Positions 2,749 through 59,601 of a stretch of 64,000 nucleotides of DNA are shown here, piece after piece. How positions within the stretch are numbered: the stretch's first letter is position 1; the number at the start of each line of letters is the position of its first letter. The DNA is taken from positions 17,656 to 81,655 of IMG/VR virus record IMGVR_UViG_3300031673_011235. The stretch is one strand, 5' to 3'. The notes under the pieces were generated by a model. The model saw only the letters and a program-made list of their open reading frames with translations. It had not been told where the DNA came from and did not search any database. The translations under genes were made by a program, and so were the position numbers. This stretch comes from a virus.

Positions 2749-2777
2749 ATAATATTATCTTAAAAAAGGAGTTCCAA
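2749..2777 (-). promoter_or_regulatory. Candidate leftward promoter for the tail fibre gene
   Basis: On the minus strand TTGGAA (2777-2772) and TATTAT (2754-2749) are 17 nt apart. The match is weaker than in the other promoters. A promoter is expected here because the fibre gene is cut off from the main tail operon by the terminator at 4115-4144 and by an opposed gene. Confidence 0.35.
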
Positions 2778-4093
2778 TGAAATCTCTTCTTTGCTTTTTA
2801 ATGTTAATGGGGATAGTGTTGTCGGGTTCAGCTACTATTACCAACATTCCCGCCGATTACGCCACTATCCAGGCGGGCATCGATGCCTCCATCGATGGCG
2901 ACACGGTGCTGGTTCAACCGGGCATTTACTATGAGAACGTTTATCTTGAAGAACACGCTGTTGTCCTAGGGTCACTGTTTTTAACAACAGAAGACACCAA
3001 TTATATCGATCAGACCATTATCGATGGTAGCTTAATTGGGTCAACAGTAACGTTCTATTACCAGAATTATTACGCAGGAAGCAATTCCATGTTAATCGGC
3101 TTCACTATTCAGAATGGTCGTGGAAATCATGGAGGGGGCATAAGTTGTATCTCTTCCGATCCGATTATTTGCAACAATCACATCATTAATAATATTTCCA
3201 ATGATGCGGGCGGCGGAATTTTTCTGTGGACCGGTTCAAATCCTGTAATTTCCGAAAACCTAATTGCCGATAATACCGCTGTCGAGAGAGGCGGAGGAAT
3301 CTTTATTTGTTGGTCATATTCGGTTATTTCCTATAACCGTATTTGCAATAATCATGCTGTGACAGGAGCCGGCATTTTTATGTCCGAGAACATGCAAGAA
3401 CCAACACCAGAATTTCACTACAACCTTATTGCCAACAACGAAGCTTCAACCGAAGGCGGCGGCTTATACGCGTATCATTCCAAATTCTTGATGTCAAATA
3501 CTACTATTACCGATAACTATCCTGGAACAGGAGTGTACCTGGAACAGTATTCAGACGTGATCATTTCTAACACCATAGTCTGGAATAATGGCTTCACTAC
3601 TCACGGAAGCAGTATATACTCAATTTCTTACAGCGACGTCGAGGATACAACGGTTTTGGGGGTCCACAATATTCACGAAGACCCGTTATTTTGTTGGTCA
3701 GATACAGCCAATTATCTATTACAGAGTGATTCCCCTTGTATAGGAACTGGCGAGGACAGTAATAATATCGGGGCGTTTGGAGTAGGCTGTGATGCCCAAG
3801 ATGTATTAGAGGATATTGTTAGCTTGCCGTTAAAGTGTTCGCTAAAGCAAAACTATCCGAACCCTTTCAATGCTTCAACAACGATCAGTTACTTTCTCTT
3901 TCAGCCCACTAATGTTAAGCTAGATATTTATGATCTCCTCGGTCATCATATTGAAACCATATCTGGTATCGATCAACCTGCCGGGCAATATCGAGTAACC
4001 TGGAATGCCGGTGATTTTCCATCAGGAATGTATTTCTATAAAATCCAGGCCGGTGATTTTACTGAAACGAAAAAGATGCTTTTAGTCAAATAG
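2777..4093 (+). CDS. Secreted beta-helix protein with type IX secretion sorting domain
   Basis: A 438-residue protein with a clear signal peptide (about 1-20), then NIPADYATIQAGIDASIDGD, the typical start of right-handed parallel beta-helix (pectin-lyase-like) proteins. Repeated GGGI/GGGL and N-rich turns run through residues about 110-300. The C-terminus (about 355-438) is a type IX secretion sorting domain: KQNYPNPFN, strand-rich middle, then PSGMYFYKIQAGDF and a final KKMLLVK. Known T9SS passengers are exported and anchored on the surface of Bacteroidota and related FCB bacteria. It sits alone and opposed to its neighbours, with its own possible promoter and a terminator, and its base and codon use are more GC-rich than the rest of the window. 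I read it as a cargo gene acquired from the host lineage; an attachment or glycan-binding role is possible but not shown. Confidence 0.85.
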   Translation: MKSLLCFLMLMGIVLSGSATITNIPADYATIQAGIDASIDGDTVLVQPGIYYENVYLEEHAVVLGSLFLTTEDTNYIDQTIIDGSLIGSTVTFYYQNYYAGSNSMLIGFTIQNGRGNHGGGISCISSDPIICNNHIINNISNDAGGGIFLWTGSNPVISENLIADNTAVERGGGIFICWSYSVISYNRICNNHAVTGAGIFMSENMQEPTPEFHYNLIANNEASTEGGGLYAYHSKFLMSNTTITDNYPGTGVYLEQYSDVIISNTIVWNNGFTTHGSSIYSISYSDVEDTTVLGVHNIHEDPLFCWSDTANYLLQSDSPCIGTGEDSNNIGAFGVGCDAQDVLEDIVSLPLKCSLKQNYPNPFNASTTISYFLFQPTNVKLDIYDLLGHHIETISGIDQPAGQYRVTWNAGDFPSGMYFYKIQAGDFTETKKMLLVK

Positions 4094-4114
4094 CATTAAA
4101 TTTAAAAACAGGCT

Positions 4115-4144
4115 AAAAAAGAGTCTGCCCTGGGCTCTTTTTTT
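4115..4144. terminator. Bidirectional rho-independent terminator
   Basis: AAAAAAGAG at 4115-4123 pairs with CTCTTTTTT at 4135-4143, with a GC-rich middle. The A and T flanks let it act in both directions. It lies between the convergent T9SS-type gene and the leftward glycosyltransferase gene. Confidence 0.75.
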
Positions 4145-4169
4145 ATATCATGTCTTATAAATGATACCT

Positions 4170-5339
4170 CTATATAACATAATATTTATCGTGACGATCT
4201 AAAGATTCAACTGGATTTTTTTCAGTTTCATACCATCCTCCAGCTTTATAAAGATCGCTAAATTGCTCAAAATATCTTTGATACATCCAACGAACCCGAT
4301 CTAAAGAAAAATTGTCTATTGCGTATCTTCTAATTTTATAAGAATCTAGATTTTTAACATGTTGCGCGGCCCACAGCATTTCTTTGAAACTTGCACAACG
4401 AAATCCTACTTTGTTGTTTTGGACGGTTTCGCTAAAAACTCCAAACGGGCTTGTGATAACGGGGGTCCCACAAAACATACTTTCAATATGAACTCCCTCG
4501 AAAGGCGGCCAATAGTATGTGGCAATAAAAACAGCTTGCGCTTTTTTCATCCATTCCCCACGTTCTTCTTTATTTAATACTCCAATATATTGTACTTGAT
4601 CGTCTAATGTTACGCCTAAAGCTTTCAAGTTGCTTGAGCATTGTCCAGCGATGTATAATTTTTTACCTAATTTTCTGGCGACTTGTTCGGCGATATTAAT
4701 TCCTTTTGTTTCGATACATCTACCTACAAATAAAAAATAATCATCTTTTTCAGCACTATACGGAAAATCGTCAGGATCATAACTATTAGGAATAACAGTA
4801 TCGTACCAATTTCCTTGCTCTATGTTTTGTCGTCCGTACACCCATGAACACCAAGCATTACTTTCAAAGACACGTCCTCGCATATTACAAAATGTTCCAG
4901 TGTATCCAATTCCAGCCTCAATAACGAACGTATTACCAGGCAACCCTTTAGTGGGTTCATCAAAATAATGACCAAACCAGCAAAGAACAAAATTTTCTGT
5001 GTCAGGATCAATATTTTTAGGTAATTCTATTTTTAGGGTTCTTCGTAGTTCGTCCCAAACTGGATCGTCAACTGCAAATTTAAAAAATTGATCATTAGTA
5101 TTGTAATACTTCAAATAGTCATCCCAAGTTTTTTCGCTGACAACGGGAATAAATTTATCGTGGGGCGGAAGTGGGGCATCAGTCGGTTTATTATAAGGAG
5201 CATATAAATATACTTCGTGTCCTAATGATGACATCATCTTACACATGTTGTATGCTTTTTGTGTATAAGCACATTTTACATAATCGTCGTTACACTTGGT
5301 GTGTGCTAAAGAAAGCACATGGATCCTAAATTTTCTCAT
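4170..5339 (-). CDS. Glycosyltransferase, GT-B fold (GT4-like)
   Basis: A 389-residue protein built like group 1 glycosyltransferases: an N-terminal Rossmann-like half beginning RIHVLSLAHTK with the phrase 'MMSSLGHEVYLYAP', and a C-terminal half with FLFVGRCIETKG, a strand at LYIAGQ, and the donor-binding region FEGVHIESMFCGTPVITSP, where the first E after the aromatic residue matches the E-x7-E motif. It should transfer a sugar from an activated donor. It is the last gene of the leftward tail operon, directly after a second glycosyltransferase, so it may glycosylate a virion protein; that is inferred from position. Confidence 0.8.
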   Translation of the reverse strand: MRKFRIHVLSLAHTKCNDDYVKCAYTQKAYNMCKMMSSLGHEVYLYAPYNKPTDAPLPPHDKFIPVVSEKTWDDYLKYYNTNDQFFKFAVDDPVWDELRRTLKIELPKNIDPDTENFVLCWFGHYFDEPTKGLPGNTFVIEAGIGYTGTFCNMRGRVFESNAWCSWVYGRQNIEQGNWYDTVIPNSYDPDDFPYSAEKDDYFLFVGRCIETKGINIAEQVARKLGKKLYIAGQCSSNLKALGVTLDDQVQYIGVLNKEERGEWMKKAQAVFIATYYWPPFEGVHIESMFCGTPVITSPFGVFSETVQNNKVGFRCASFKEMLWAAQHVKNLDSYKIRRYAIDNFSLDRVRWMYQRYFEQFSDLYKAGGWYETEKNPVESLDRHDKYYVI

Positions 5340-25523: not shown

Positions 25524-25913
25524 ATGGACAGAAAACCAATAGAATATCGCAAGCACTGCCCAATAAGAACTGGCGCTGGCGCGTGTCCCAACTGCTATAC
25601 AGTGCACGGGGAAATGCTTGAAACATTATGCGATTATAATTGGCGAGAAGCATTTACTTACGCTACATTTGAAAGAGAAGATGTTAAGCGTATTATATAT
25701 TTATCTGAGGGCGAAAACGACGGAGCGGCTTGGATCTGCTTAGTGCAATTAAAAAATAATAAATATGGCGCCATCAATGCCTGGTGTGATTATACTGGGT
25801 GGGACTGACAGGCTGGTGGTGAATCGGCAGTTGCCGATACTAAAAAAGAACTATTAAAAGATTTTTTTGTAGAGGATGATTTAAATAGATTCGGAATTAA
25901 AGGAAGGAAATAA
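25524..25913 (+). CDS. Small conserved phage-type protein with in-frame UGA (possible selenoprotein)
   Basis: The frame encodes 94 residues up to a TGA at 25806-25808, then continues in frame for 34 more sense codons (QAGGESAVADTKKELL and so on) to a TAA at 25911-25913 that overlaps the next start as TAATG, with AAGGAAGGAAA placed as its Shine-Dalgarno. The sequence around the TGA reads CDYTGWD-[UGA]-QAGG. From memory, related small proteins have Cys at this point (GWDCQ); I could not check this. The hairpin at 25823-25838 fits bacterial SECIS rules. Other readings are a base error (TGT or TGC to TGA) or a mutated gene. The N-terminus has a CPNC pair and HCPIR, so metal binding is possible. 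Function is unknown. Confidence 0.6.
25823..25838 (+). promoter_or_regulatory. SECIS-like hairpin downstream of in-frame UGA
   Basis: ATCGGC (25823-25828) pairs perfectly with GCCGAT (25833-25838) around the loop AGTT. The loop begins 20 nt after the UGA, has G in its second position and a 6-bp stem. Published bacterial SECIS rules ask for a 16-37 nt spacing, a 4-16 bp upper stem and a G in the first two loop bases. A chance hairpin is possible. Confidence 0.4.
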
Positions 25914-26236
25914 TGTCAATTTCAATTGATCTTTATGCTTATAACCACAAATCATTAGTAGACGATTTAATAAAAATAGGTTGTTCGGACAACATTTTAT
26001 TAGATAAAATTTTAACGACTTGCGGAGATGTGTTTGGTGAATCTTGCATTATTTTGTGCAACGAACATTGTGATGACGGAAACCCTTATTATAATATTGC
26101 AACATTAATAGATTCAGCATTTAATATATCTGATTCCTTTAACGTATTTTTCTATAATGAAACTAAAAAAGAAGGAATAAATTATGTTGATATTTATGAG
26201 GTGGCAGAAGAATTAGGTATTAAACTCGAGGAATAA
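25913..26236 (+). CDS. Hypothetical small acidic protein
   Basis: A 107-residue acidic protein beginning MSISIDLYAYNHKSLVDDLI, with five Cys residues spread through its middle and a helical C-terminus. It starts in a TAATG overlap with the UGA-containing frame, which is evidence that the upstream gene runs through to that point. No family recognised. Confidence 0.6.
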   Translation: MSISIDLYAYNHKSLVDDLIKIGCSDNILLDKILTTCGDVFGESCIILCNEHCDDGNPYYNIATLIDSAFNISDSFNVFFYNETKKEGINYVDIYEVAEELGIKLEE

Positions 26237-29370: not shown

Positions 29371-30024
29371 ATGATAATTGATGCTTTTAATGCCCAGAAA
29401 TTTACTGAATGGTGTAAACCATTTAAAATTTTTGACACTACGATAGGGGAAATTTTTGCGGAAGCTGTTAATAAAATGTCTGCTCTTGTAAAAACAAATT
29501 GTGTTATTTACCAGTATAGTGATAAAGTAATCACCATAACACCCGGTTTGGCTCATGAGCAAAGATTTTGGATGAGCGACAAATGTAGAAACAGTTCCTC
29601 ATTAAATTCTGAAATTTCATTTTCTACGGCTATCAGTAGTGGTCTTACCATAGGTTTTAGTGAAGCATGCAAAAACCGAAATATTAAAAAACTATCTCCC
29701 CTGTTTTACAAATATGGCCACTCGCGTGCCAGTACTTGGTCGGAAATAGATTCATATATTGGTGATTGTGTGGACGAAGTCTATAGGGACGTAACGAACC
29801 GTTATCAAAAAAATTTTTTAACGAATCAATTAAAGACTGAACAACTTAATTTACCTTTAAATTGTGTCCCACTACCTATAGACAAACTGCCTAGTTATTT
29901 TTTATTTGGTAGAGTATTTTATCCTGAGGGCAATGCTTTGATTTCGGAGGATATGTCAGATAAGCGACAAATTATTGATATAGTTCGAAATCGTGCAAAA
30001 CAGTTAAGGAGTGAGTCTTTATAA
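29371..30024 (+). CDS. Hypothetical protein, 217 residues
   Basis: Begins MIIDAFNAQKFTEWCKPFKI and has mixed alpha/beta character with a Ser-rich middle. Preceded by AAAGAGAATAAATT. It ends in a TAATG overlap with the CCA-adding enzyme gene. No motif recognised. Confidence 0.55.
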   Translation: MIIDAFNAQKFTEWCKPFKIFDTTIGEIFAEAVNKMSALVKTNCVIYQYSDKVITITPGLAHEQRFWMSDKCRNSSSLNSEISFSTAISSGLTIGFSEACKNRNIKKLSPLFYKYGHSRASTWSEIDSYIGDCVDEVYRDVTNRYQKNFLTNQLKTEQLNLPLNCVPLPIDKLPSYFLFGRVFYPEGNALISEDMSDKRQIIDIVRNRAKQLRSESL

Positions 30025-31490
30025 TGGAAAAATATTTTAAAACTTTACTAAAAAATAAAGATGCTAAAGTTTACAGGGTAGGAGGGGCAGTACGAGATAA
30101 GATTTTAAAACAAAATCCTAAAGATTATGATTATCTGGTAACAGGCGTGCCTTTTAATTATTTAATTTATTTTCTTCAGACTAAGGGTAAGGTAGAACAC
30201 GTTGGAGCTACGTTCGGAGTTTTAAAATTTTATCCGGCAAATAAAAACATAAAAAAAGAAATTGACATTGCGTTACCCAGAAAAGAAATCAGTATCGGTC
30301 CTGGACATAAACAATTTAAAGTTGAATTTGATCACACTTTGACCGTTATGGATGATTTAGGCAGACGAGATTTTACAATTAATTCTATAGCCTTTGACAT
30401 AAAAACTAAAAGGTATATTGATCCGTTCGGGGGCTTACAGGACATTAAAGATAAAATTATTAGACACGTGTCCGAGAAAGCCTTTGAAGAAGACCCGTTA
30501 AGAATTTTAAGAGCCATACAATTTTCGGCCAGATTAAATTTTAAAATAACTCAAAAAACACTTAATTTGATGTCTGCCAGTGTTAATTTATTAATACACG
30601 TTTCTCCCGAACGAATTGCTGTTGAACTTAACAAACTATTAAGTTCCGATAAACCTAGTATCGGGTTTGACTATTTGTATGAGTGCGGGGCTTTAAAATT
30701 ATTATTGCCTGAATTGTGTGAATGTAAAAATATTAAACAAACTAGAAAAGGTCAAGCTTCGACAGTATTTGATCACATTATGTTGGCCTTAGATGCCGTG
30801 CCCAAAGATAATTTATTAATACGGTGGGCTGCGGTGTTTCACGACATGGCTAAACCAGAATGTAAAATTTTAAGAAAAGGTAAAAACAGTTTTATTGGTC
30901 ACGATAAAACTGGCGCTAAATTAGCTAAAAAATATCTGACTGCCTGGAAATTCCCAAATAACTTTACTGCGGATGTGGCTCATTTAATTAAACACCATAT
31001 GTTTGACGCGGCCCCGAAAATAACTTCGAAGGCGGTAAGGCGTTTAATTAATAAGGTAGGTAAAGAATATATATTCGATTTAATTGAACTTAGAAAGGCC
31101 GACAGAAACGGTACCACGGAAAAATTATCTATGTGGAAAATAGATAATCTGGTACGTAAAATAAAAATTGAATTAGCTAATAAACCTTTCAGCATAAATG
31201 ATTTAGCTATTGATGGTACCGATATTATGGAGCATACAGGTTTAAAATCTGGACCTGAAATAGGACTCATACAAAAAATATTATTGTTGTATGTGTTATA
31301 TCACGATGTTCTTAACTCTAAATCAGATTTACAGTTGCACATACCATACCCAGGTAAAGAGTGGATCGAATATTGCCCTAATGGGACAATATTTAGACTT
31401 AATAAAATTCTCGAGATGTTAAATAGTGAATCTGTATGGAGTTGGGACTGTGGTCATATGTGTGGAAATATTTGTGCAAATAAAGATTGA
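30024..31490 (+). CDS. cca: CCA tRNA nucleotidyltransferase with HD domain
   Basis: A 488-residue class II nucleotidyltransferase: YRVGGAVRDKIL (nucleotide-binding GGAVRD), DYDYLVTG (the metal DxD), EIDIALPRKE, then RRDFTINSIAFD and EEDPLRILRAIQFSARL of the neck region. An HD-type domain follows (FHDMAKPEC near residue 275 and IKHHMF near 325). It adds or repairs the 3' CCA of tRNA. Both phage tRNA genes here lack an encoded CCA, so this enzyme would complete them. The stop codon lies inside the -35 box of the next promoter. Confidence 0.85.
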   Translation: MEKYFKTLLKNKDAKVYRVGGAVRDKILKQNPKDYDYLVTGVPFNYLIYFLQTKGKVEHVGATFGVLKFYPANKNIKKEIDIALPRKEISIGPGHKQFKVEFDHTLTVMDDLGRRDFTINSIAFDIKTKRYIDPFGGLQDIKDKIIRHVSEKAFEEDPLRILRAIQFSARLNFKITQKTLNLMSASVNLLIHVSPERIAVELNKLLSSDKPSIGFDYLYECGALKLLLPELCECKNIKQTRKGQASTVFDHIMLALDAVPKDNLLIRWAAVFHDMAKPECKILRKGKNSFIGHDKTGAKLAKKYLTAWKFPNNFTADVAHLIKHHMFDAAPKITSKAVRRLINKVGKEYIFDLIELRKADRNGTTEKLSMWKIDNLVRKIKIELANKPFSINDLAIDGTDIMEHTGLKSGPEIGLIQKILLLYVLYHDVLNSKSDLQLHIPYPGKEWIEYCPNGTIFRLNKILEMLNSESVWSWDCGHMCGNICANKD

Positions 31491-31563: not shown

Positions 31564-32010
31564 TTGGACATACTTACAATTGTCGTGCTTGGATTAATGG
31601 TAGGAGTAGCAGGCCATCTTTTAAATAAAAAACAAAAGAAACTCACTATTACTTTAGAAGCATTAACAGAGGCCAATGAAGCATACAAAAAACTATTAAG
31701 TCAAAAAAAATCTAGTGAAATACTTGTTGGGCTGGTCACAGAACAATTGGCACCTTTGATGAAAGAATTTGAATATAATACCAGAGATGCCAGATTTATT
31801 GGAAATCCTATAGACTACGTGGTGTTTGCGGAAAACGAAATAGCTATTGTAGAAGTTAAAAGTCAAAATTCACAATTAACTGCGAAGCAGCGAAAAATTA
31901 GAGACTTGGTAAAATCTGGAAAAGTTGTTTGGAAAGAAATACGAATTGCTGGAAAAGAACCCAAACAAAAATCGGAGGACACCGACAATAATGGACTTCA
32001 TAAAATTTAA
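31564..32010 (+). CDS. Holliday-junction-resolvase-related nuclease, membrane-anchored
   Basis: A 148-residue protein starting at a TTG (31564) with AGGGGAT 5 nt upstream; an upstream ATG at 31519 would translate the terminator hairpin and is rejected. Residues about 3-20 are a membrane span, 25-55 a coiled coil, and 75-140 the nuclease domain: RDARFIGNPIDYVVF, AIVEVKSQNSQLTAKQRKIR (the E-x-K of the PD-(D/E)XK fold) and WKEIRI. This matches the family of predicted endonucleases distantly related to archaeal Holliday junction resolvases (Pfam Endonuc_Holl). It overlaps the primase gene by 20 nt. Substrate is not known. Confidence 0.75.
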   Translation: MDILTIVVLGLMVGVAGHLLNKKQKKLTITLEALTEANEAYKKLLSQKKSSEILVGLVTEQLAPLMKEFEYNTRDARFIGNPIDYVVFAENEIAIVEVKSQNSQLTAKQRKIRDLVKSGKVVWKEIRIAGKEPKQKSEDTDNNGLHKI

Positions 32011-34696
32011 ACAACTGTTTGTCCATAAAGAAGATGACTTTGCTTTACAAGCGAAAGATGGCAGATACGCCAGACAAAACAGACCTATAACAGATCGAAA
32101 TATTAAAGACCATTTGTTAGGAAAACAGACTATTGGTCTTTTTCAATTAAAGCAGGAAGACACAGAATTGTGGACTGTTAAATGGGCTTGTGCAGATGTA
32201 GACATAAACAAGATTATATGGAGTCAACCTGGCTATAAGATCGATGATTGGATAACAAGACTAGATGAACAAGCCCAACTCATTAAAGATAGGTTGGCAC
32301 TGTATAACATCACTGGGTACGTAGAAGATTCCGCCGGTAAAGGCAGACATGTCTGGATATTTTTTGATCAACCTATTGACGCACAACTTGTAAAAACAGT
32401 ATTCGAAAGAGTATTAAGTACCGTTAATTTAGTGGATCCCGGAATGCATATAGAACTGTTTCCAAAACAAAGTTCAGCCGACTACGGTAATTTAGTAAAA
32501 GGACCTCTTGGCAAGCATATGAAATCTGGAAGAATGTCATATTTTATAGACCCAACAGATGAAATAGAGTTTGTTACAACTAAAGATTTAGAAGAAGCTG
32601 GATCTGATCTAAATGCTATTTTTCAACAGTGTGCAGCGTTCGCTAATTTACAGGACAAGGCCGATAAAACCGGGCATCTCACGAATAATGAAAGATTAGT
32701 TTTAGCCAGTGTTTTCACAAATATTACAGACTCTAACGGAACAAATATTGGTCGACCTTATGTTGAATATAGAATCTATAAAAAAATGGACGATTATGAT
32801 GCCGAAAAAACAAAATATTACATCGAACATGGTCTGGGAAAAGAGTATAAACCTTATCTTTGTGAAACTGTACAATCAACTAAATTCGACAGTATTTGTA
32901 CTAAACAATGTAAATTAATTGGTAAAAGTAAAAGTCCAGTTGCTTTATATTTTAGAGCTAAGGGCGATTATCAAAAAGAAGAGGAATTATCCATAGATTC
33001 GGTTAGTAAAGCCGACAGCATTGAAAAGAAAGGATTTGGTTATTATATTAAACCAGACTCAACTTCTAAAAATAAAAAATTAATTCAGATATCAGATTTT
33101 TATTATAGACAGGACGAAACATTAATCATTGATGACGGCATTGAACAAAACAAAACTTTTAAAGGAGCCCTAATCAATGAAAAGGGAGAATTCCCCATAG
33201 AGTTGACGTCGGAAGAATGGTCCAGCGACCCCAAACTCTCAGCGTCTATTTATAATTGTTTAGGCAATAATATTCTAATAGATTCTATTAGTAAAATAAG
33301 AGATGCAATGAATAAATTTGCTGGAGGTACTACAACTACCGTGAAAAAAATATTTGGATACAACGACGAACTAACAAAATATTACACCCCGTCAATAGTT
33401 ATTAGCAGAGACGAGATTAAAAAGAATGATGAAATGATAATTGATTTGGAAAAGACCGATACGGCAGAAAATCTGGATATGCGAATTTTAACAGACACTC
33501 AATTTGAATTTGTCAAAAATATGATTAAAGAACAACTGTTACAACTTAATCCCCCACACATCACTCACTCTGCTTTTGGTCACGCGATGCTACCTATTTT
33601 ATCTCCTTTTGCTTTTATAGACAACGATGATAGCAAATACACATTATTTCTTCACGGCAAAACTGGCGGCGGAAAATCATTTTTGTTAGAAAAAATACAA
33701 TGTTTGTATGGAGAGTTTAAAACTTTTGGATCTTGGTCAGGTACGGCTAACTCGGTTCAAAAAATAGGCCATTATTATAAGGACGCTGTATACTTTGTTG
33801 ATGACTTCAAAGAAAAACATGTAAAAGACCAATATAATCAAGTTTTAACTGTTTTGCAAACTTACGCTGACGGTTCTGCCAGAACACGGTTATCCGCTGA
33901 CTCTTCTTTGCAAAAAACATACAGAATCCAGGGTTGGTTTACTACGGCCGGGGAAGACTATACACAGGGAGAGGCTTCCAATGTTGCCAGAATGATTTTA
34001 ATACCCGTACCCAAAACACCAGTGCAATATGACAAGGGGGCTATTCTTAATAAAAACATGAAACTTTTATGTGGGTATACTCCACGATACATACAATGGA
34101 TATTACAACAAGATAAAACAGATTTATCCGACAAACTATTGGAATACCATAAATATTTTGGCAAATTGATTGAAGGGAAGGATAACGCTCCTAGATTAGC
34201 CAGAAACATGTCTTTGCTTATGTTAAGTTATGAATATGCTGCTAGATTTTTATGGGGCGAACAAGAAGCTCAATTTTACATTAAGCAGGAAAGAACATAT
34301 TTAGAAAAACTTATTAAAAAGATGGTTACAACCGCGTCACAGGAATCTTCCGCTGAAAGATTTTGGGTGACATTGACAGAATTATTGGCAGTAGGCAAAG
34401 TCAGGTTTCAATTGGATCCTAACGTTGATGAGGATAAAGGATCAAAAGTTCCTATAGTTGGATTTTTGAAAAAAGACCAATCGTATATTATAATGGGCAG
34501 TGCAATGAAAGCGGTGGCCTTGGCTCTGAAAGAAAGTATACCTTTAGGACATTCGGCAACCGCGATAATACAGGAACTGCATGAGAAAGGAGTTTTATTG
34601 GATGATAAACCATCTTCGGTAAGATTTAATAAAAAAACAGTAAGGGCTGTAGAGATGCAACCTGATGCTTTTGATTTAGAATTATTAGAACAATAG
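31991..34696 (+). CDS. AEP-type primase/helicase
   Basis: A 901-residue protein starting at the ATG at 31991 (CGGAGGAC 9 nt upstream). The N-terminal part has archaeo-eukaryotic primase features: CADVDIN (about 67-73, metal Asp pair), GYVEDSAGKGRHVWIFFDQP (about 107-126) and LFPKQSSAD, like the primase of TOTE-type systems. A Cys-rich segment lies at about 292-312. The C-terminal part is a DUF927-like P-loop helicase with GKTGGGKS (about 555-562) and VYFVDDF (about 599-605). It should both prime and unwind DNA at the phage fork. The nearest neighbours are the junction nuclease and a hypothetical gene. Confidence 0.75.
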   Translation: MDFIKFKQLFVHKEDDFALQAKDGRYARQNRPITDRNIKDHLLGKQTIGLFQLKQEDTELWTVKWACADVDINKIIWSQPGYKIDDWITRLDEQAQLIKDRLALYNITGYVEDSAGKGRHVWIFFDQPIDAQLVKTVFERVLSTVNLVDPGMHIELFPKQSSADYGNLVKGPLGKHMKSGRMSYFIDPTDEIEFVTTKDLEEAGSDLNAIFQQCAAFANLQDKADKTGHLTNNERLVLASVFTNITDSNGTNIGRPYVEYRIYKKMDDYDAEKTKYYIEHGLGKEYKPYLCETVQSTKFDSICTKQCKLIGKSKSPVALYFRAKGDYQKEEELSIDSVSKADSIEKKGFGYYIKPDSTSKNKKLIQISDFYYRQDETLIIDDGIEQNKTFKGALINEKGEFPIELTSEEWSSDPKLSASIYNCLGNNILIDSISKIRDAMNKFAGGTTTTVKKIFGYNDELTKYYTPSIVISRDEIKKNDEMIIDLEKTDTAENLDMRILTDTQFEFVKNMIKEQLLQLNPPHITHSAFGHAMLPILSPFAFIDNDDSKYTLFLHGKTGGGKSFLLEKIQCLYGEFKTFGSWSGTANSVQKIGHYYKDAVYFVDDFKEKHVKDQYNQVLTVLQTYADGSARTRLSADSSLQKTYRIQGWFTTAGEDYTQGEASNVARMILIPVPKTPVQYDKGAILNKNMKLLCGYTPRYIQWILQQDKTDLSDKLLEYHKYFGKLIEGKDNAPRLARNMSLLMLSYEYAARFLWGEQEAQFYIKQERTYLEKLIKKMVTTASQESSAERFWVTLTELLAVGKVRFQLDPNVDEDKGSKVPIVGFLKKDQSYIIMGSAMKAVALALKESIPLGHSATAIIQELHEKGVLLDDKPSSVRFNKKTVRAVEMQPDAFDLELLEQ

Positions 34697-40395: not shown

Positions 40396-40433
40396 TAAGC
40401 CCGTGAATTATATTTACGGGCTTATTCTTTTTT
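40396..40433 (+). terminator. Rho-independent terminator overlapping a promoter start
   Basis: TAAGCCCGT (40396-40404) and ACGGGCTTA (40416-40424) form a perfect 9-bp stem followed by TTCTTTTTT. The T run ends at the first base before tRNA-Leu. It ends the upstream unit; transcripts starting at 40399 lose part of the stem. Confidence 0.75.
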
Positions 40434-40517
40434 ACCCTTGTGGTGAAAATGGCATACACATAGCGCTTAGAACGCTAGGGATTAGGTTCCATGTAGGTTC
40501 AAGTCCTACCAAGGGTA
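40434..40517 (+). tRNA. tRNA-Leu (anticodon TAG)
   Basis: The 84-nt gene folds as a class II tRNA: acceptor ACCCTTG with CAAGGGT, D arm GTG/CAC, anticodon stem TAGCG/CGCTA with loop CTTAGAA (anticodon TAG at 40468-40470), a long variable arm GGGATTAGGTTCC, and T arm GTAGG-TTCAAGT-CCTAC. Discriminator A; no CCA is encoded. It reads CUA, useful in an AT-rich genome. Confidence 0.9.
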
Positions 40518-40544
40518 TCAAGATAAACAAAATAAAGGAAAAAT

Positions 40545-40635: not shown

Positions 40636-40717
40636 GTCGGAGTGGTGGAACTGGCATACACATGAGCCTTAAGAGTTCACGCCTTATGGATTGAGGGTTC
40701 GACTCCCTCCTCCGATA
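40636..40717 (+). tRNA. tRNA-Leu (anticodon TAA)
   Basis: The class II tRNA has acceptor GTCGGAG paired with CTCCGAT (first pair G-U), D arm GTG/CAC, anticodon stem TGAGC/GTTCA with loop CTTAAGA (anticodon TAA at 40670-40672), a short variable arm and T arm GAGGG-TTCGACT-CCCTC. Discriminator A; no CCA encoded. It reads UUA, a very frequent codon here. Confidence 0.9.
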
Positions 40718-45042: not shown

Positions 45043-46965
45043 ATGATAAACAGTAAAATAAAAGTAGGATTAGTTCAAATAAACAACACCTTTTCTGGAC
45101 AAACTTATATCCCGTATACAGCGGGATCCCTACAGGCGTATTTTCAAGAAACATCAGAAAATAGTGAAAATTTTAATTTTGAAAATATAATTTACAGGGC
45201 CGACACTATAGATAAAATAGTAAAAAAATTGTCTCGCTGTAATATTATAGGGGCTAGTTTGTATCAATGGAATTATAATTTTACATTGGAAATATGTAAA
45301 CAATTAAAACAAAAAACCCCGCTGTGTAAAATTATTGTTGGTGGCCCTCAAATAAAAGATTTGGATAAATCTTTATTGGAAAATAATCCGTTTATTGATA
45401 TAGCAGTATATGGAGAAGGAGAGGAAAAGTTTTCAGCCATTTTAAACCATTTACATTCTGGTGAAGATTTAAATATTATACCGGGCATTATTTACAGGAA
45501 AGGTCAAGCTGTGTATGCCACCAACCCAACTTATATAAATGCTGGAAAATTGGAAAATTATCCATCACCATATCTCAGCGGTTGTTTTGATAATATTCTA
45601 AAAGAAGATCCCAATCTTATAGGAATGATTGAAACTAATCGTGGTTGTCCATATAAATGTGCATATTGTAATTGGGGCGGGCACTCATTTAAAACTATTA
45701 GACATTTTACTAGAGACAGGGTATATGGAGAATTGAACTGGTTGGCACAAAATAAATTTGAGTTTGTAATATTTTGTGATGGCAACTTCGGTTTATTTAA
45801 AAAAGACTTGGATACCGTAAATAAATTAGTAGAATTAAAACAAACATACGGATATCCAAAAGTGGCCGCCATACAAAATAGTAAAAAATTAACTACAAAC
45901 CTTTTAAATATACACGATGCGCTTAATAAACATGGGCTCGACAGAGGAGTTACCATCTCAATACAAACTACATCACAAGAAGCATTAAAAAATGTAAAAA
46001 GATCTAATTTAACTTTAGATGATTTTCTAAAATTTCAAAGTAAATTAGCCAGACTTGGTATACAAACATACACTGACTTTATTATAGGGTTGCCTGGAGA
46101 AACTTATAAATCTTTCATAGAGGGCATAGATATTATAATAAATAAAGGCCAATATAACAAAATACAATTTAATAATTTAGTTACAGTTCCTAATACTGAG
46201 ATGGATACGCCAGAGTATAAGGAAAAATACAAACTTATTTCAGTGAAAACTAAACCAATAAATAGGTATGGAACTCTATATGACGACTTGTACGAAGAAC
46301 AAGAATCCATTGTTGGTTCTTATTCGTTTACAGTTGAAGATTTCATTAAAATGAAAGTATTTTCTCACATGACATCTTTTCTTATATTTAATAAATTTTT
46401 ACAGATTCCTATTTTGTTAATGCACAAATTAGAAAATATTTCTTATAAAGACATAATACATAAGTTTATTTCGGCAGAATCAAATTGTAACACAATTAGA
46501 ACATTAATTAAACTCTTCACTAACCATGCTACTAATTTAACTAAAGGAGGATTTGATTACGCGTACTCTAAAGAATACCACGATATTTATTGGCCATTAG
46601 AAGAATTAGCTTATATTAATTTAGTAGCAAATAATCAACTCAGTACAACATACCAAGAAGCCGGGCAATTGTTATTATCTATGGTTTCTAATAAAAATAA
46701 AAGTGTGATAACGGAAGCTATAGAATTAAATAAACAATTATTAGTACTTCCAACAAACACTGTTACAAAATTATCTTTAACATACAACATTTATGAAAAT
46801 TATTTAAATATCTTAAAGAATCAGCCCATAAATATAGAAAAAACATATCCCACATATGAGATAGAAATTAAATATAAATTTAATAATGTGTGTGATTGGT
46901 GTCGTGACATTATTTGGTACAAAAACAAACCAGGAAATTATTTATATCAATGCATAAAAAAATAA
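45043..46965 (+). CDS. B12-binding-type radical SAM protein
   Basis: A 640-residue protein. Residues about 10-150 form a Rossmann-like cobalamin-binding-type domain (VGLVQIN, IIGASLYQWN, CKIIVGGPQ, IAVYGEGEEKF). The radical SAM domain follows, with ETNRGCPYKCAYCNW (three Cys in Cx3Cx2C at about 203, 207 and 210), FVIFCDGNFG and TDFIIGLPGE. The C-terminal 220 residues are AT-rich and less typical. In bacteria such proteins methylate or rearrange unreactive carbons, often in lipid or natural-product synthesis. Substrate unknown; the sugar operon suggests an unusual sugar or lipid. Confidence 0.8.
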   Translation: MINSKIKVGLVQINNTFSGQTYIPYTAGSLQAYFQETSENSENFNFENIIYRADTIDKIVKKLSRCNIIGASLYQWNYNFTLEICKQLKQKTPLCKIIVGGPQIKDLDKSLLENNPFIDIAVYGEGEEKFSAILNHLHSGEDLNIIPGIIYRKGQAVYATNPTYINAGKLENYPSPYLSGCFDNILKEDPNLIGMIETNRGCPYKCAYCNWGGHSFKTIRHFTRDRVYGELNWLAQNKFEFVIFCDGNFGLFKKDLDTVNKLVELKQTYGYPKVAAIQNSKKLTTNLLNIHDALNKHGLDRGVTISIQTTSQEALKNVKRSNLTLDDFLKFQSKLARLGIQTYTDFIIGLPGETYKSFIEGIDIIINKGQYNKIQFNNLVTVPNTEMDTPEYKEKYKLISVKTKPINRYGTLYDDLYEEQESIVGSYSFTVEDFIKMKVFSHMTSFLIFNKFLQIPILLMHKLENISYKDIIHKFISAESNCNTIRTLIKLFTNHATNLTKGGFDYAYSKEYHDIYWPLEELAYINLVANNQLSTTYQEAGQLLLSMVSNKNKSVITEAIELNKQLLVLPTNTVTKLSLTYNIYENYLNILKNQPINIEKTYPTYEIEIKYKFNNVCDWCRDIIWYKNKPGNYLYQCIKK

Positions 46966-47002
46966 CAGAGCAAAAAATATACGGTTGGTTAAAACCTTAA
47001 AA

Positions 47003-47710
47003 ATGAAAATATCTATATTAATTCCAACACGATTAAGGGCAAATCGCTTACTTGCATTAATTCAAAATATTGATAGTACTGTTGCACAAAAAGATAACAT
47101 TGAAATTTTATTTTGTATTGAACCCTATGATATAGAAACAATCAAATTAAAAGATGCAAACTTAAATCCTAATATTAAATGGATTATTCATGACACTAAA
47201 GCAAATAACACAATATTCTCTAATTTAACTAATATACTTTATACGCATTCAACAGGAGAAATTATTTTAATTGGTGCAGACGACATAATGTTCCATTTAC
47301 AAGATTGGGATAATTTAGTTAGAGAATGTTTTAATAAATATCCAGACAAAATTTTATTAGTAAACCCACGAGACGGAATACAAAATGGTGCAATAGCTCC
47401 TCATTTTTTTATACATAAAAATTGGATTGATACTATAGGGTATGTAGTACCCCCACTCTTTAAGTCATGGTATAATGATACTTGGGTAACTTCTGTGGCA
47501 CAAGGTCTAAATCGATATATATATTTACCAGAATTTTTTTTAGAACATTTACATCCATGTACCGGAAAGACAAAGGAAGATGTAACTAGTAAAGAAAAAA
47601 ACGCCGGTATTCCAGAAGATCATAAAATATGGCTAAAAACTGGAGACTTACGTGCAGAAGATGTTAAAAAATTACAAACATTTATAGAAGAGTACAATAA
47701 AAATGATTAA
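47003..47710 (+). CDS. Glycosyltransferase-like protein, GT-A
   Basis: The start is taken at the ATG at 47003 (235 residues); a TTG at 46985 is less likely. MKISILIPTRLRANRLLALI is the GT2 entry, and GEIILIGADDIMFH gives the acidic metal motif. A C-terminal Trp/Tyr-rich half follows. It overlaps the methyltransferase gene by 8 nt. Confidence 0.7.
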   Translation: MKISILIPTRLRANRLLALIQNIDSTVAQKDNIEILFCIEPYDIETIKLKDANLNPNIKWIIHDTKANNTIFSNLTNILYTHSTGEIILIGADDIMFHLQDWDNLVRECFNKYPDKILLVNPRDGIQNGAIAPHFFIHKNWIDTIGYVVPPLFKSWYNDTWVTSVAQGLNRYIYLPEFFLEHLHPCTGKTKEDVTSKEKNAGIPEDHKIWLKTGDLRAEDVKKLQTFIEEYNKND

Positions 47711-48239
47711 GCTAAATTTGGGATGTGGAAAAAGACACATACCGCATTACGTAAATATTGATATTGACGAAACTTGTAATCCGGATAAAATAGAGGACAT
47801 TAGCACATTGCCCTCGTTTGAATATAATTCAGTTGATTTAATTTACTGTGCTCATGTTTTAGAACATTTTCCTACAAAACAAGTACCTTTTATTTTAAAC
47901 CGTTGGAAAGATGTTTTAAAAACAAATGGTATCATACGTATCTCTGTGCCAGATTTAAATAGTATTTTTTGTCATTACATACTTCATAAAGATTTAACAA
48001 TTTTAAATAAACTTTTATATGGTGAACAGAGCAACGAATATCATTTTCATAAATCTGGATGGGATTTTAAAACCATGCAAAAATTATTACGCCGTACTGG
48101 GTTTGAAAATATTAAAAGATTTAATTGGAAAGATTTAGAGCACCATTACATAGATGATTATAGCCAAGCTTATTTACCACATATGCAAAAAGAAACCGGA
48201 ACTTTAATGAGTTTAAATATAGAAGGAACCAAAATATGA
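47703..48239 (+). CDS. SAM-dependent methyltransferase
   Basis: A 178-residue class I methyltransferase: KLNLGCGKRHIPHYVNIDID (motif I G-x-G and acidic end of strand 2), SVDLIYCAHVLEHF (motif II) and LKTNGIIRISVPDL (motif III). Similar short enzymes methylate sugars or lipids in polysaccharide clusters. Overlaps both neighbours by 4-8 nt. Confidence 0.8.
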   Translation: MIKLNLGCGKRHIPHYVNIDIDETCNPDKIEDISTLPSFEYNSVDLIYCAHVLEHFPTKQVPFILNRWKDVLKTNGIIRISVPDLNSIFCHYILHKDLTILNKLLYGEQSNEYHFHKSGWDFKTMQKLLRRTGFENIKRFNWKDLEHHYIDDYSQAYLPHMQKETGTLMSLNIEGTKI

Positions 48240-49183
48240 AAATATTAATTACCGGATGTGCCGGATATTTAGGAAGCAAATTATCAACCTTATTACTTCA
48301 AAAAATGCCCGATGTAGAAATAGTTGGTATAGACAATTTAATGTATGGACAACAAAGTATAGGGCATTTAAGTACATATGAAAACTTTTTATTTCAAAAT
48401 TTAGATATTAGAAATGATAAATTTCTAAAAATTTTAAAAACTGGAAATTTTGACGCTGTTTATCCATTAGCTGGTCTGGTTGGAATGCGTTCATGCGACT
48501 TAGTTGAAAAAAATAGCTGGGAAATAAATTATCAACAAATAAAAAATATTGTTGACTGGAAATTACAAACTAACTCTGACATTAAAATTATATTTCCTAA
48601 TACAAATAGTGGGTATGGTATTGGTGATAGTGACTATTGTACTGAAGAAAGTCCTCTTAGACCAGTCTCAGTTTACGGAGAAGTAAAGGTAGCCGCTGAA
48701 AAATATCTAATTGAACATTGCCCTGATGCGACAAGTTTTAGACTAGCAACTGTGTTTGGACCTTCCTATAGATTTAGGCAAGAAATCATGACAAATGATT
48801 TTGTTAGTAAAGCTTATTTTTTGGGATATATGGTTATTTTTGAACCACATTTTAGACGAAATCATGTTTCAGTTGACGACGTAGTGCGAGCTTTTTGTTG
48901 GGCTTTAGAAAATAAAACTACTACTAAGGGTGTTTATAATTTAGGATTAACTTCCGCTAATTGTACAAAGAAAGAATTAGCCTTGAAAATAAAAAAACAA
49001 CTTCCAAAATTAGTAATTGTAGAAGATAATTTTACAAATGACCCTGATAAAAGAGACTACATTGTCTCTAATGAAAAACTCGAAAAAGCTGGATTTATTC
49101 CACAAACAACTCTCGAAACAGGCATTAAGCAACTTATTCGTTTTTATAAAACTTTACCCAGAAAACAATTTACAAATGCATAA
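48236..49183 (+). CDS. NAD-dependent sugar epimerase/dehydratase (SDR)
   Basis: A 315-residue extended SDR: ITGCAGYLGSKLSTLLL (NAD site), VYPLAGLVGMRSCD, FPNTNSGYGIGDSDY (catalytic Ser/Thr region), VYGEVKVAAEKYL (Tyr-x3-Lys) and FRLATVFGPSYR. Substrate cannot be told from sequence. Overlaps the next gene by 8 nt (ATGCATAA). Confidence 0.8.
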   Translation: MKILITGCAGYLGSKLSTLLLQKMPDVEIVGIDNLMYGQQSIGHLSTYENFLFQNLDIRNDKFLKILKTGNFDAVYPLAGLVGMRSCDLVEKNSWEINYQQIKNIVDWKLQTNSDIKIIFPNTNSGYGIGDSDYCTEESPLRPVSVYGEVKVAAEKYLIEHCPDATSFRLATVFGPSYRFRQEIMTNDFVSKAYFLGYMVIFEPHFRRNHVSVDDVVRAFCWALENKTTTKGVYNLGLTSANCTKKELALKIKKQLPKLVIVEDNFTNDPDKRDYIVSNEKLEKAGFIPQTTLETGIKQLIRFYKTLPRKQFTNA

Positions 49184-49784
49184 TTTAACAAAAAAAGATC
49201 TCATTGCTTTTGAAGATAAAATTATTGCCCTCTATGGAGCTGGCAAAATTAAAGCTCCCGTACATTTATCTGGTGGCAATGAATACCAGTTAATAGATAT
49301 ATTTAAAAATATAAATTCTACAGATTGGGTATTTTCAACATGGCGTAGCCATTACCATGCCCTATTGCACGGTATTCCGGAGGATTGGTTATATAAAGAA
49401 ATACTGACCGGTCATAGTATAACAATACAGTGCCCAAAACATAGATTTTACAGTTCAGCAATAGTAGGCAGTATTGCTCCAGTAGCCGTAGGTACAGCGA
49501 TGGCTATGAAATATAAAAAACTTCCTGATAAAGTTTGGTGTTTTATTGGAGATATGGGAAGTCAAATGGGTACTTTTTATGAAGCATTAAAATATGCCCA
49601 TGGCCATGATTTGCCAATTACCTTTGTAATCGAGGATAATGGCCTATGTGTGAATACTGCTACACAAAAAGTATGGGGCCGCTCTGATCTACAAAGTAGT
49701 TTAGAAATTAGTAAAAATATAATACACTATAGTTACACTCGTAAATATCCCCATATGGGTATTGGTAAATTTATAAATTTTTAA
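49176..49784 (+). CDS. TPP-dependent E1 alpha-like subunit, shortened
   Basis: A 202-residue protein starting at the ATG at 49176. It holds the TPP/metal motif of E1 alpha subunits: CFIGDMGSQMGTFYEALKYA and then VIEDNGL (GDx...DN). WRSHYHALLHG and SAIVGSIAPVAVGTAMAMK are also typical. Full E1 alpha proteins have about 320-360 residues; the C-terminal part is missing. It is followed by an equally short beta-like subunit. The pair may make or transfer an activated acyl/aldehyde group to a sugar. Confidence 0.75.
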   Translation: MHNLTKKDLIAFEDKIIALYGAGKIKAPVHLSGGNEYQLIDIFKNINSTDWVFSTWRSHYHALLHGIPEDWLYKEILTGHSITIQCPKHRFYSSAIVGSIAPVAVGTAMAMKYKKLPDKVWCFIGDMGSQMGTFYEALKYAHGHDLPITFVIEDNGLCVNTATQKVWGRSDLQSSLEISKNIIHYSYTRKYPHMGIGKFINF

Positions 49785-49797
49785 TCTTAAATAAATC

Positions 49798-50334
49798 ATG
49801 AGATACACAAAAGAAATAACAAAAACAATGTCTTGGCTAAGTTTTAAAAAAGACACAATATTTTTAGGCCAAACAGTAAATGTACCAGGTACATCAATGT
49901 TTCAAACATTTGCAAACGTACCAATAGAAAAAAGAATAGAACTACCAGTAGCAGAAGAACTTCAAATGGGGCAATCCATAGGCCTAGCTTTAACAGGATT
50001 AGTGCCAATAACTGTTTACCCTAGATTTGATTTTTTACTGCTTGCTGCAAATCAATTAATAAACAATTTAGACAAATTCTCAGTAATGTCAAATGGAACT
50101 GTGGAGCCAAAAGTAATAATACGTGTCGGAATTGGAAGTACTAAACCATTATACCCAGGCCCACAACATCACCAAGACCATAGTGACGGATTTGAAAAAA
50201 TGTTAACTAAAATAGAACTAATTAAATTGATAGAGCCGGACGATATTTTACCAGCTTATAAAAAAGCTTATGAGCGTACCGACGGCCTTTCAACAATATT
50301 AGTCGAATATATGGACTTTTATAATGACAAATAA
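49798..50334 (+). CDS. TPP-dependent E1 beta-like subunit, shortened
   Basis: A 178-residue protein matching the pyrimidine-binding domain of E1 beta / transketolase: ELPVAEELQMGQSIGLALTG (catalytic Glu), VPITVYPRFDFLLLAANQLI, VIIRVGIGS and QHHQDHSD. The C-terminal transketolase domain (about 140 residues in PDH beta) is absent. It lies 13 nt after the alpha-like gene and overlaps the following GT by 11 nt. Confidence 0.75.
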   Translation: MRYTKEITKTMSWLSFKKDTIFLGQTVNVPGTSMFQTFANVPIEKRIELPVAEELQMGQSIGLALTGLVPITVYPRFDFLLLAANQLINNLDKFSVMSNGTVEPKVIIRVGIGSTKPLYPGPQHHQDHSDGFEKMLTKIELIKLIEPDDILPAYKKAYERTDGLSTILVEYMDFYNDK

Positions 50335-51229
50335 ACCAAATAACTATGACTTATCTATAGTTATAGCAAGTATACGCCCCCATTATTGGAACACTGTTTA
50401 TAATAGCTTACTAGGATCATGCGGAAAATATAAATTTGAATTAATTTTCGTAGGACCTTTTGAACCGCCTGAAAATTTTGTTAATAATGATACTATAAAA
50501 TATATTAAAGACTTCGGATCAGTTAGCAGAGCGGCACAGATTGGAGCAAATATTGCAACAGGGAAACTTTTCTTTTCTACGGTAGACGACTGTTTCTTTA
50601 TAAAAAATGCTGTTCAAGAAACTATTGACTATTATTATGGAAATTGTAATAAATTTGATGTAGTTGGTATGAGATTTAGAGAAATTAAAGCAGGAAGACT
50701 TGTATTTGAAAGACCGCAAATAGACAATTACCCAGAATATCTTTCAAATTTAGTAAATGGATGTCTTACAACTAATGAGCCACCTTTTATGAATCAACCA
50801 TATCCTCCAGCATATTGGTTTTTTAAAGGTGTTCCAATTGCCGTTCAACCCTTTTTGGATTTAAATACTTTTAAAGAAATTGGTGGTTGGGATTGTAATT
50901 ATGAATATTTATGTGCTCCTGCTGCTGATTTAGGAATTAGACTTCAAAATATGGGAGGCAGAGTATTACAATCCCTTGTTGAAATCTCATTAGCAGAATT
51001 TTGGCCTGAACACAGTTTAGACCATAAACCAATTCATGATAGTACCCGTTCTGATGAAATTTTATTTGAGCAATTATTGCCAAAATTAAAATCTAAAACA
51101 ATTATAGATTTTAATAATTGGGAACAAAGTTCGGAAATATGGAAAAAAAGATTTCCAAACGGGAAGACACTTGAGTACGAAACAATGTTGACAGCTATTG
51201 GTGGCAACTACGAAAAACCACAGTTATAA
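50324..51229 (+). CDS. Expanded-family GT-A-like transferase, member 1
   Basis: A 301-residue protein: YDLSIVIASIRPHYWNTVYN, FELIFVGPFEPP, IKYIKDFGSVSRAAQIGANI and STVDDCFF (metal motif in place of DxD), with a C-terminal EIWKKRFPNG. It shares this frame (entry, GP, K-D-F/Y-G, D-D, then W..RF end) with the genes at 54009, 54779, 55548 and 58788. It probably is a glycosyltransferase; substrates are unknown. Confidence 0.7.
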   Translation: MTNKPNNYDLSIVIASIRPHYWNTVYNSLLGSCGKYKFELIFVGPFEPPENFVNNDTIKYIKDFGSVSRAAQIGANIATGKLFFSTVDDCFFIKNAVQETIDYYYGNCNKFDVVGMRFREIKAGRLVFERPQIDNYPEYLSNLVNGCLTTNEPPFMNQPYPPAYWFFKGVPIAVQPFLDLNTFKEIGGWDCNYEYLCAPAADLGIRLQNMGGRVLQSLVEISLAEFWPEHSLDHKPIHDSTRSDEILFEQLLPKLKSKTIIDFNNWEQSSEIWKKRFPNGKTLEYETMLTAIGGNYEKPQL

Positions 51230-52243
51230 ATGAAACGCATACTAATTACAGGAAGCCAAGGATTTATCGGGTCTTATCTTTGTACCGAATTTTTAAATAA
51301 CAGTTACGAAGTAATAGGAGTAGACGATTATTCAAAATATGGAAAAGTAATACGTGCACACGATTCGCACCCTAATTTTACTTTTTGTTTTGGTGATATT
51401 CAACAATATAAAAATTTTAGTGCTTTAGCAAATTTTTACAAACCACAAATAATAATATCTTTGGCGGCAAAAATAGGAGGTATTAGTTATTTTCATAAAT
51501 ATGCTTATGATCTATTAGCCAGCAATGAAAGAATAACATCGAATGTTTTTGACGTAGCTATAGATTTGTATAAAAAAAGTATATTAGAAAAAATTGTTGT
51601 TGTATCAAGTTCTATGGTTTTTGAAAATACAAAAAAATACCCTACTCCAGAAACAAGCATATTAGACACGCCTCCTCCTTTAACAACATACGGATTTCAA
51701 AAGTTAGCTACAGAATATTTTGCCAAGGGAGCATTTGAACAGTATGGGTTGCCATTTCAAATAGTTAGGCCTTTTAATTGTGTTGGAATAGGAGAAGATA
51801 AGGCATTACAAGATTGTGAAGTTTTATCTGGAAACATAAAATTAATGATGAGCCACGTCTTACCGGATTTAATAAACAAAACATTGCGAGGACAAAATCC
51901 ATTACATATTTTAGGTGACGGTACTCAAATAAGATGTTATACTAACGGAAAAGATATAGCCAGAGGTATTAGGGCAGTCACAGAAACAACACATATAAAT
52001 GAAGATTTTAACATATCAACTACAGAGGTAACCAGTGTTTTAGAATTGGCAAAGATAGTATGGGATCAAATAAATGCTAGTCCTTTTATGATTGAAACTG
52101 AACCTCCATTTCAATATGACGTTCAAAAGAGAATTCCTGACACTACTAAAAGTGAAAAACTTTTAAATTTTAAAGCACAAATTCCTCTTATTGAATCAGT
52201 AAAAGAAGTTATAAATTATTTTAAAACCATGGGTAAATATTAA
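51230..52243 (+). CDS. NAD-dependent sugar epimerase/dehydratase (SDR)
   Basis: A 337-residue extended SDR: ITGSQGFIGSYLCTEFL (NAD site), IIISLAAKIGGISYFHKYAY, VVSSSMVFENTKKYPTPE, YGFQKLATEYF (Tyr-x3-Lys) and RPFNCVGIGED. The middle resembles epimerases of the GDP-mannose/UDP-glucuronate kind. Its stop overlaps the start of the next gene. Confidence 0.8.
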   Translation: MKRILITGSQGFIGSYLCTEFLNNSYEVIGVDDYSKYGKVIRAHDSHPNFTFCFGDIQQYKNFSALANFYKPQIIISLAAKIGGISYFHKYAYDLLASNERITSNVFDVAIDLYKKSILEKIVVVSSSMVFENTKKYPTPETSILDTPPPLTTYGFQKLATEYFAKGAFEQYGLPFQIVRPFNCVGIGEDKALQDCEVLSGNIKLMMSHVLPDLINKTLRGQNPLHILGDGTQIRCYTNGKDIARGIRAVTETTHINEDFNISTTEVTSVLELAKIVWDQINASPFMIETEPPFQYDVQKRIPDTTKSEKLLNFKAQIPLIESVKEVINYFKTMGKY

Positions 52244-53049
52244 TGAAAATAGGAATTGTTGGTCTTGGTATAGTAGGCTTAGCCTGCCATTTTGGGTTTC
52301 AAAAACTAGGTCATACAGTTTATGGCCACGATATTAAATTTGAAACCAAACTAACTGATTTATTACAATGTAATGTAATTTACGTTTGTGTTCCAACTCC
52401 AAAAAATAAAGATGGTTCTTGTAACGTTAGCATTGTAGAAAAAGTAGTCAAAGATTTAAATAAATTAAATTATCGAGGAGTGATTGCAATACATTCGACA
52501 GTTATTCCTGGAACGACAGCACGCTTACAACAAGAAATCAATAAAAATTTAGACATCTGTTTTGTGCCGGAATTTTTACGAGAACGTTGTGCAATTTCAG
52601 ATTTTGTAGAAAATCAAAAACTTTTAGTAGTTGGAACAACAAAACCACAAGTTTATAAATTAATAAAAGAATGTCATGGAACATATTTTGAGCACTCTAA
52701 ATTACTCACTCCGACAGAAGCCGAAATTATAAAATACTATTCGAATATTTTTAACGCATTAAGAGTAATATTTGCGAATGAAATGTACGAACTTTGCCAA
52801 GCATACGAAGCCGATTATACGGCTATAAAAAATACTTTTATAAAATTAAAAACAACGCCGGATATTTATTTAGATGTTAATGATAATTTTAGAGGTTATG
52901 CTGGCACCTGTTTACCGAAAGACATAATAGCAATTGTGCAAGAAGTAAAAAGACTAAATTTAGATTTAAAGCTGTTTGAAACAATTCATGAAGAAAATAA
53001 AAAATTCAAAAAAACCGTTTTCCCAGGGACACGATTACTAGATGAGTAA
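52243..53049 (+). CDS. UDP-glucose/GDP-mannose dehydrogenase, shortened
   Basis: A 268-residue protein with the NAD domain (IGIVGLGIVGLACHFGFQKL), IYVCVPTPKNKDGS, IAIHSTVIPGTT, FVPEFLRE and the catalytic GYAGTCLPKD with Cys223. The normal C-terminal nucleotide-sugar-binding domain (150 or more residues) is missing. The catalytic residues are kept, so it may oxidise a smaller substrate or pair with another protein. Overlaps the next gene by 8 nt. Confidence 0.75.
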   Translation: MKIGIVGLGIVGLACHFGFQKLGHTVYGHDIKFETKLTDLLQCNVIYVCVPTPKNKDGSCNVSIVEKVVKDLNKLNYRGVIAIHSTVIPGTTARLQQEINKNLDICFVPEFLRERCAISDFVENQKLLVVGTTKPQVYKLIKECHGTYFEHSKLLTPTEAEIIKYYSNIFNALRVIFANEMYELCQAYEADYTAIKNTFIKLKTTPDIYLDVNDNFRGYAGTCLPKDIIAIVQEVKRLNLDLKLFETIHEENKKFKKTVFPGTRLLDE

Positions 53050-54016: not shown

Positions 54017-54779
54017 ACCTGTTCTTTCTATTATGATGCCTGCCATACGACCTAATAACTGGGATGCAGTATACGAATCAATTGTTAATGCCGTATCTGT
54101 GCCCTTTGAATTAATTATTGTAGGTCCTTATGCCCTAACACCAAAATTAGAACCATTTCCAAATATAAAATATGTTAAAGACTTTGGGAATCCTGTAAGA
54201 GCACACAATATTGCATCATTACTGGTAGAAGGTCAATACCTTACTTGGGTTCCAGATGACGGACTATTTGTACCTAAAATATTAGATACGATGCTACACG
54301 AATTATCCACAATGCCCCCTAATGTTAAAAATATTGTTATAGCCAGATACACTGAAGCTGGACACGAATTTGACAAAAAATTCTTTAATATAAATAGTGA
54401 CGGTGTTACTGGTGGACCGTATGTTTCAGATAATTGGTATTTACTAAGTCAGCCTGTTATCGATACTGGATTTTATTTATCTTTAGGCGGATTTGATTGT
54501 CAATTTGAATCTTTACCGCCGGCTTGCAATGATTTTTCAATTCGCGCGCAACGAGGCGGTGCAATTGTAAAATTAGTTGACCAGGTTGCTTTGCACTGCA
54601 CACATATGTCCGGTCATGCAGGAGATCATGGTCCCATGCATGATGCTCAAATGTTAGTGGACACACCTTTATACAATAGTATTAATGTTAATCCTGAACT
54701 CGCAGATAGAGTTGTAGTTGATATAGACGGATGGAAAAATGTACCGTCTGTATGGGAACGGAGGTTTGGTAATATATAA
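54009..54779 (+). CDS. Expanded-family GT-A-like transferase, member 2
   Basis: A 256-residue protein: LSIMMPAIRPNNWDAVYESI, FELIIVGPYALTP, NIKYVKDFGNPVRAHNIASL, LTWVPDDGLF (metal motif) and a C-terminal PSVWERRFGN. It shares all these marks with its two right-hand neighbours, so the three arose by tandem duplication. Probable glycosyltransferase; substrate unknown. Confidence 0.7.
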   Translation: MTKPVLSIMMPAIRPNNWDAVYESIVNAVSVPFELIIVGPYALTPKLEPFPNIKYVKDFGNPVRAHNIASLLVEGQYLTWVPDDGLFVPKILDTMLHELSTMPPNVKNIVIARYTEAGHEFDKKFFNINSDGVTGGPYVSDNWYLLSQPVIDTGFYLSLGGFDCQFESLPPACNDFSIRAQRGGAIVKLVDQVALHCTHMSGHAGDHGPMHDAQMLVDTPLYNSINVNPELADRVVVDIDGWKNVPSVWERRFGNI

Positions 54780-59600: not shown

Positions 59601-59601
59601 A

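Follow-up and report, generated by a model that had tools for sequence, protein, structure and literature searches.

Organization of the locus

The DNA analysed here (the window) is a stretch of 64,000 nt from an 81,655-base viral record. A candidate selenoprotein gene occupies positions 25524..25913 of its plus strand, running from an ATG to a TAA and encoding 129 residues with a predicted selenocysteine (Sec) at position 95. The frame comprises 94 codons, an in-frame TGA at 25806..25808 (plus strand), a read-through part of 34 sense codons at 25809..25910 (plus strand), which forms a conserved C-terminus, and the TAA at 25911-25913. This stop codon overlaps the start of the next gene as TAATG. 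The Shine-Dalgarno-like sequence of that gene, AAGGAAGGA, can be read directly at 25900..25908 (plus strand), within the read-through part. The downstream gene itself (25913..26236, plus strand, 107 aa) matches phrog_24552 with E = 4e-11; it is a neighbour and stands outside the Sec mechanism. A hairpin of the bacterial SECIS (bSECIS) type lies past the UGA at 25823..25838 (plus strand), with arms ATCGGC (25823-25828) and GCCGAT (25833-25838) enclosing the loop AGUU (25829-25832). It has six perfect pairs and a stem energy of -8.0 kcal/mol, and its loop starts 20 nt past the UGA. The first-pass annotation, made from the letters of the window, had described the same frame, the overlapping stop and start codons, the internal Shine-Dalgarno sequence and the hairpin with its 6-bp perfect stem, AGTT loop and 20-nt spacing, and each of these proved exact.

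Taken alone, the window observation goes only modestly beyond chance, because an open run of 34 codons or more follows about 9% of all the window's TGA triplets, and the fold of the hairpin region has a z of -1.44 against shuffles. Against synonymous recoding the single hairpin reaches p = 0.02. The window contains 12 candidates that combine a TGA with an extension, and only the site at 25806 satisfies the published bSECIS energy limit. The weight of the Sec case rests on the homologues, not on the window alone.

A phage protein family with UGA or Cys at one site

The window gene is a member of a phage protein family with the motif CDYTGW[D/G](C/U). A first search of viral contigs returned five relatives. 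In four of them Cys stands where the window gene has UGA; the fifth (L004) has TGA, is G+C-rich and only 37% identical to the window gene, and carries a hairpin of its own. A profile scan for the peptide [WG]CDYTGW in public phage and genome contigs, with the codon at the UGA position left free, sampled the family more widely. The invariance of CDYTGW is imposed by this search pattern; the UGA/Cys split is not. The scan yielded 71 viral and 9 cellular-genome loci, and 77 distinct motif loci were obtained with the window included. When the window gene is aligned with the 76 other members, the codon at the site is TGC or TGT in 58 loci, TGA in 19, and no other codon occurs. Besides the window, the UGA set comprises 16 viral contigs and two contigs from metagenome bins. 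Five of its loci were first met by a pattern containing TGA, and the same contigs were recovered in the codon-free scan. A twentieth UGA member with a hairpin (L121), on a divergent branch, came from a later TGA-pattern scan and lies outside the 77-locus set. Every UGA member continues past the UGA into a C-terminus, and none of the homologues ends at that codon. The GWDCQ motif, which the first-pass annotation had given for related small phage proteins, exists among the relatives.

The gene neighbours of the 77 loci include no conserved partner, and replication or recombination genes stand beside a few of them. Among annotated phage records only one group matches the family, consisting of environmental podovirus records with no host given; its sampled member has the Cys form.

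Selection across the UGA and changes between UGA and Cys

The window gene and its closest relative (L080) are about 60% identical across their full length. Between the two, pN is 0.24 and pS 0.71 after the UGA, compared with 0.30 and 0.69 before it. Purifying selection after the UGA is thus like that before it, which argues that the extension is translated. The tree, which was built without the UGA/Cys site from a short alignment that leaves many forks open, contains at least 11 changes between UGA and Cys, three of which are forced by well-supported branches. On this sequence evidence the Cys and the putative Sec versions have interchanged repeatedly among phages.

The hairpin of the UGA members

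The published bacterial SECIS pattern comprises a loop N1(0-1)G[G/U]NN2 placed 16-37 nt from the UGA (PMC13188914). The loops of the UGA members (AGUU, AGGUU, AGGCU or GGUC) begin 19-20 nt downstream of the UGA, and both the loops and the spacing fit that pattern. A stem of at least six pairs at this register is present in 12 of 19 UGA loci as opposed to 0 of 57 Cys loci, and the stem scores of the two groups differ with a Mann-Whitney p of 4.5e-7. Under the bSECIS limits taken from PMC13188914, with a stem energy of -7.5 kcal/mol or lower, 9/19 UGA loci qualify versus 0/58 Cys loci. The summed stem score lies 8.6 sd above a null in which each protein is recoded synonymously (z = 8.6). In six of the 19 UGA members the hairpin is imperfect or shifted.

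The hairpin arms of the UGA members covary. When only the loop letters set the register, the UGA loci pair at 80 of 90 arm positions, against a maximum of 66 in 20,000 shuffles; Cys loci with the same loop letters pair at 9 of 30 arm positions. Covariation counts on fixed columns of the whole alignment are not significant, which we attribute to the 4-nt and 5-nt loops placing the arms in different columns. These counts were replaced by arms anchored on the loop letters together with the synonymous null.

Selenocysteine genes in candidate hosts

One UGA member (L085) resides in an Actinomycetes bin, on the 34-kb contig of a temperate phage that encodes terminase, portal, tape measure and integrase. 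This bin contains selA (590 bits), selB (352 bits) and tRNA-Sec (67.8 bits), within 5 kb of one another on a contig other than that of the phage. Sec genes, proposed earlier as something to look for in hosts, thus accompany one UGA-form phage in its bin. Among 397 genomes searched from the same phylum, none outside this bin had a family member.

Several genomes with other members were also searched. No selA above the cut-off was present in five Paenibacillaceae genomes (Paenibacillus or Cohnella) from the family search; Cys was read directly in two Paenibacillus loci that do not duplicate viral entries (L082 and L084). Two bins with Cys members had no selB above the cut-off. In one of these (G004) tRNA matches fall just over the tRNA-Sec threshold, and they were not taken as selC in a bin with no selB above the cut-off. 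The bin of the closest relative, assigned to Ratteibacteria, contains neither selA nor selB above the cut-off and no tRNA-Sec, and selA was found in none of seven genomes searched from that phylum. The 7-kb contig that carries this relative may be misbinned. Beside the relative, at 4107-4892 of the same contig, lies a gene of near-identical short repeats (NSRMSD, NSWMSG) that is open in several frames.

Type IX sorting domains point to hosts of the FCB group. The window encodes at 2777-4093 a protein with NosD repeats and such a domain (Por_Secre_tail, type IX secretion), a hint at an FCB-group host for the window phage. Within the FCB group, KSB1 has been reported with selA, selB and selD, and selC was not found there (PMC9012183).

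Decoding of the UGA codon

The gene very probably encodes a 129-residue phage selenoprotein whose UGA is decoded via the SelB pathway of the host. Host SelA, SelD and selC would supply Sec-tRNA-Sec, and host SelB, bound to the bSECIS just past the UGA, would bring it to the ribosome. The UGA at 25806-25808 would then be decoded as Sec, with translation ending at the TAA. The record of the window phage has no Sec machinery: neither a tRNA-Sec nor a UGA suppressor tRNA is present in the window, as had been claimed, or in the rest of the record, and four other UGA-form viral records that were tested have no tRNA-Sec above the Rfam cut-off. The phage most likely borrows the pathway, and its own host is expected to possess the Sec machinery. 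Sec insertion by host machinery, which the first-pass annotation had suggested, is supported by the Cys/UGA alignment, the read-through part and the Sec genes of the Actinomycetes bin. The Sec reading is well supported by the sequence evidence.

Three other readings of the UGA were weighed. Read-through independent of SelB, by a host suppressor tRNA such as an opal tRNA-Cys that would insert Cys or another residue, is improbable. It would suit a site that alternates with Cys only, and the Ratteibacteria bin, in which no Sec genes were seen. However, it leaves unexplained a conserved SECIS-type hairpin that is restricted to UGA members, and the phage record encodes no suppressor tRNA. General suppression of UGA would moreover be harmful, because TGA is a normal stop elsewhere in the window, where it ends 11 of the 64 frames of at least 100 aa; the earlier statement that other genes end normally in TGA holds.

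Still less probable is a TGA that acts as a true stop and truncates the protein at 94 aa, or that arose from a misread Cys codon by sequencing or assembly error. TGA is indeed one substitution away from both TGC and TGT, but exactly this codon is also TGA in 18 further loci whose surroundings have diverged, and in no locus is it TAA, TAG or a codon for a residue other than Cys; purifying selection is equal on its two sides. A sequencing error at 25806 was rejected as very unlikely, given that the UGA form is shared by 16 further viral contigs and two from metagenome bins. A frameshift was likewise rejected, since conservation before and after the UGA follows one and the same frame. A phage or host genetic code with UGA as a sense codon (Trp or Gly, codes 4 and 25) would account for an in-frame UGA within a conserved gene, but it can be dismissed, as TGA serves as a stop in the window frames counted above and the residue that relatives show at the site is Cys, in no case Trp or Gly.

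Predicted structure and role of the protein

Profile searches of Pfam, PHROGs, NCBIfam and the PDB and two fold searches yielded no relative of the family; neither a thioredoxin-like nor any other known fold was found in the fold searches. The AlphaFold model has a mean pLDDT of 78.9, with 65 of 129 residues at 90 or above, and is arranged as two helices, four strands and two helices. Cys88 is located at the end of one strand of the model, and Sec95 two residues ahead of the next. In this model the two residues would face each other across a β-turn and may act as a redox pair or make up a nucleophilic site; selenium would render Sec95 the more reactive in either role.

We lean towards a broader view, in which this is a phage-specific selenoprotein family, spread across unrelated phages, that switches repeatedly between Sec and Cys with the Sec decoding of the host and is, in its Sec form, a more reactive variant of a new redox or nucleophilic protein. 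If so, a phage gene tracks the selenium trait of its host through Sec/Cys switching. The family could serve host prediction, as the UGA form implies a Sec-decoding host, and could offer a natural experiment on what makes selenium persist or disappear when viruses are under selection.

Relation to known selenoproteins

The window gene resembles bacterial selenoproteins that use SelB and a bSECIS, for example formate dehydrogenase FdhA, in its in-frame UGA aligned with Cys of homologues and in its hairpin within the coding region, which has a small loop with G and U at 16-37 nt from the UGA (PMC13188914). Unlike these, the CDYTGW family is phage-encoded, matches no NCBIfam or Pfam family and has no known fold that could be found. 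The poxvirus glutathione peroxidase is likewise a virus gene that depends on the Sec machinery of its host (PMC8310308). However, that protein is a captured host enzyme that uses the eukaryotic Sec system and SECIS, whereas the window phage has a SECIS of the bacterial kind, and no cellular enzyme is known as a counterpart of its protein family. Huge phages have been reported with tRNA-Sec genes, which suggests that some phages deal with selenocysteine, although the passage in question names no phage selenoprotein (PMC10747093); the record of the window phage differs from these in having no tRNA-Sec.

A 2026 inventory of prokaryotic selenoproteins makes no mention of phages or viruses (PMC13188914). 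The words phage and virus are absent from the deep-Sep paper, whose Sec candidates (hypothetical proteins DG, DW and DF) were rejected as relatives, as their NCBIfam models do not match the CDYTGW family. No phage selenoprotein family was found in the open literature, to which the search was confined, so an earlier description in a subscription paper is possible; as far as could be found, the CDYTGW family is undescribed. A gene caller that reads every UGA as a stop shortens these genes, which are therefore easily missed.

Other genes of the window

Two tRNA-Leu genes, with anticodons TAG and TAA, are located at 40433-40519 and 40636-40717, and a phage tRNA nucleotidyltransferase of the CCA-adding or poly(A) polymerase type is encoded at 30024-31490. 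Positions 31925-34696 encode a protein of 923 aa whose archaeo-eukaryotic primase domain is of the TOTE conflict-system type. Positions 45043-62585 are taken up by an extended series of genes apparently for surface glycans and cofactors, unusual at this phage size, which includes two B12-binding radical SAM proteins (45043-46965 and 56318-57820), an epimerase, a nucleotide-sugar dehydrogenase and a DegT/DnrJ aminotransferase.
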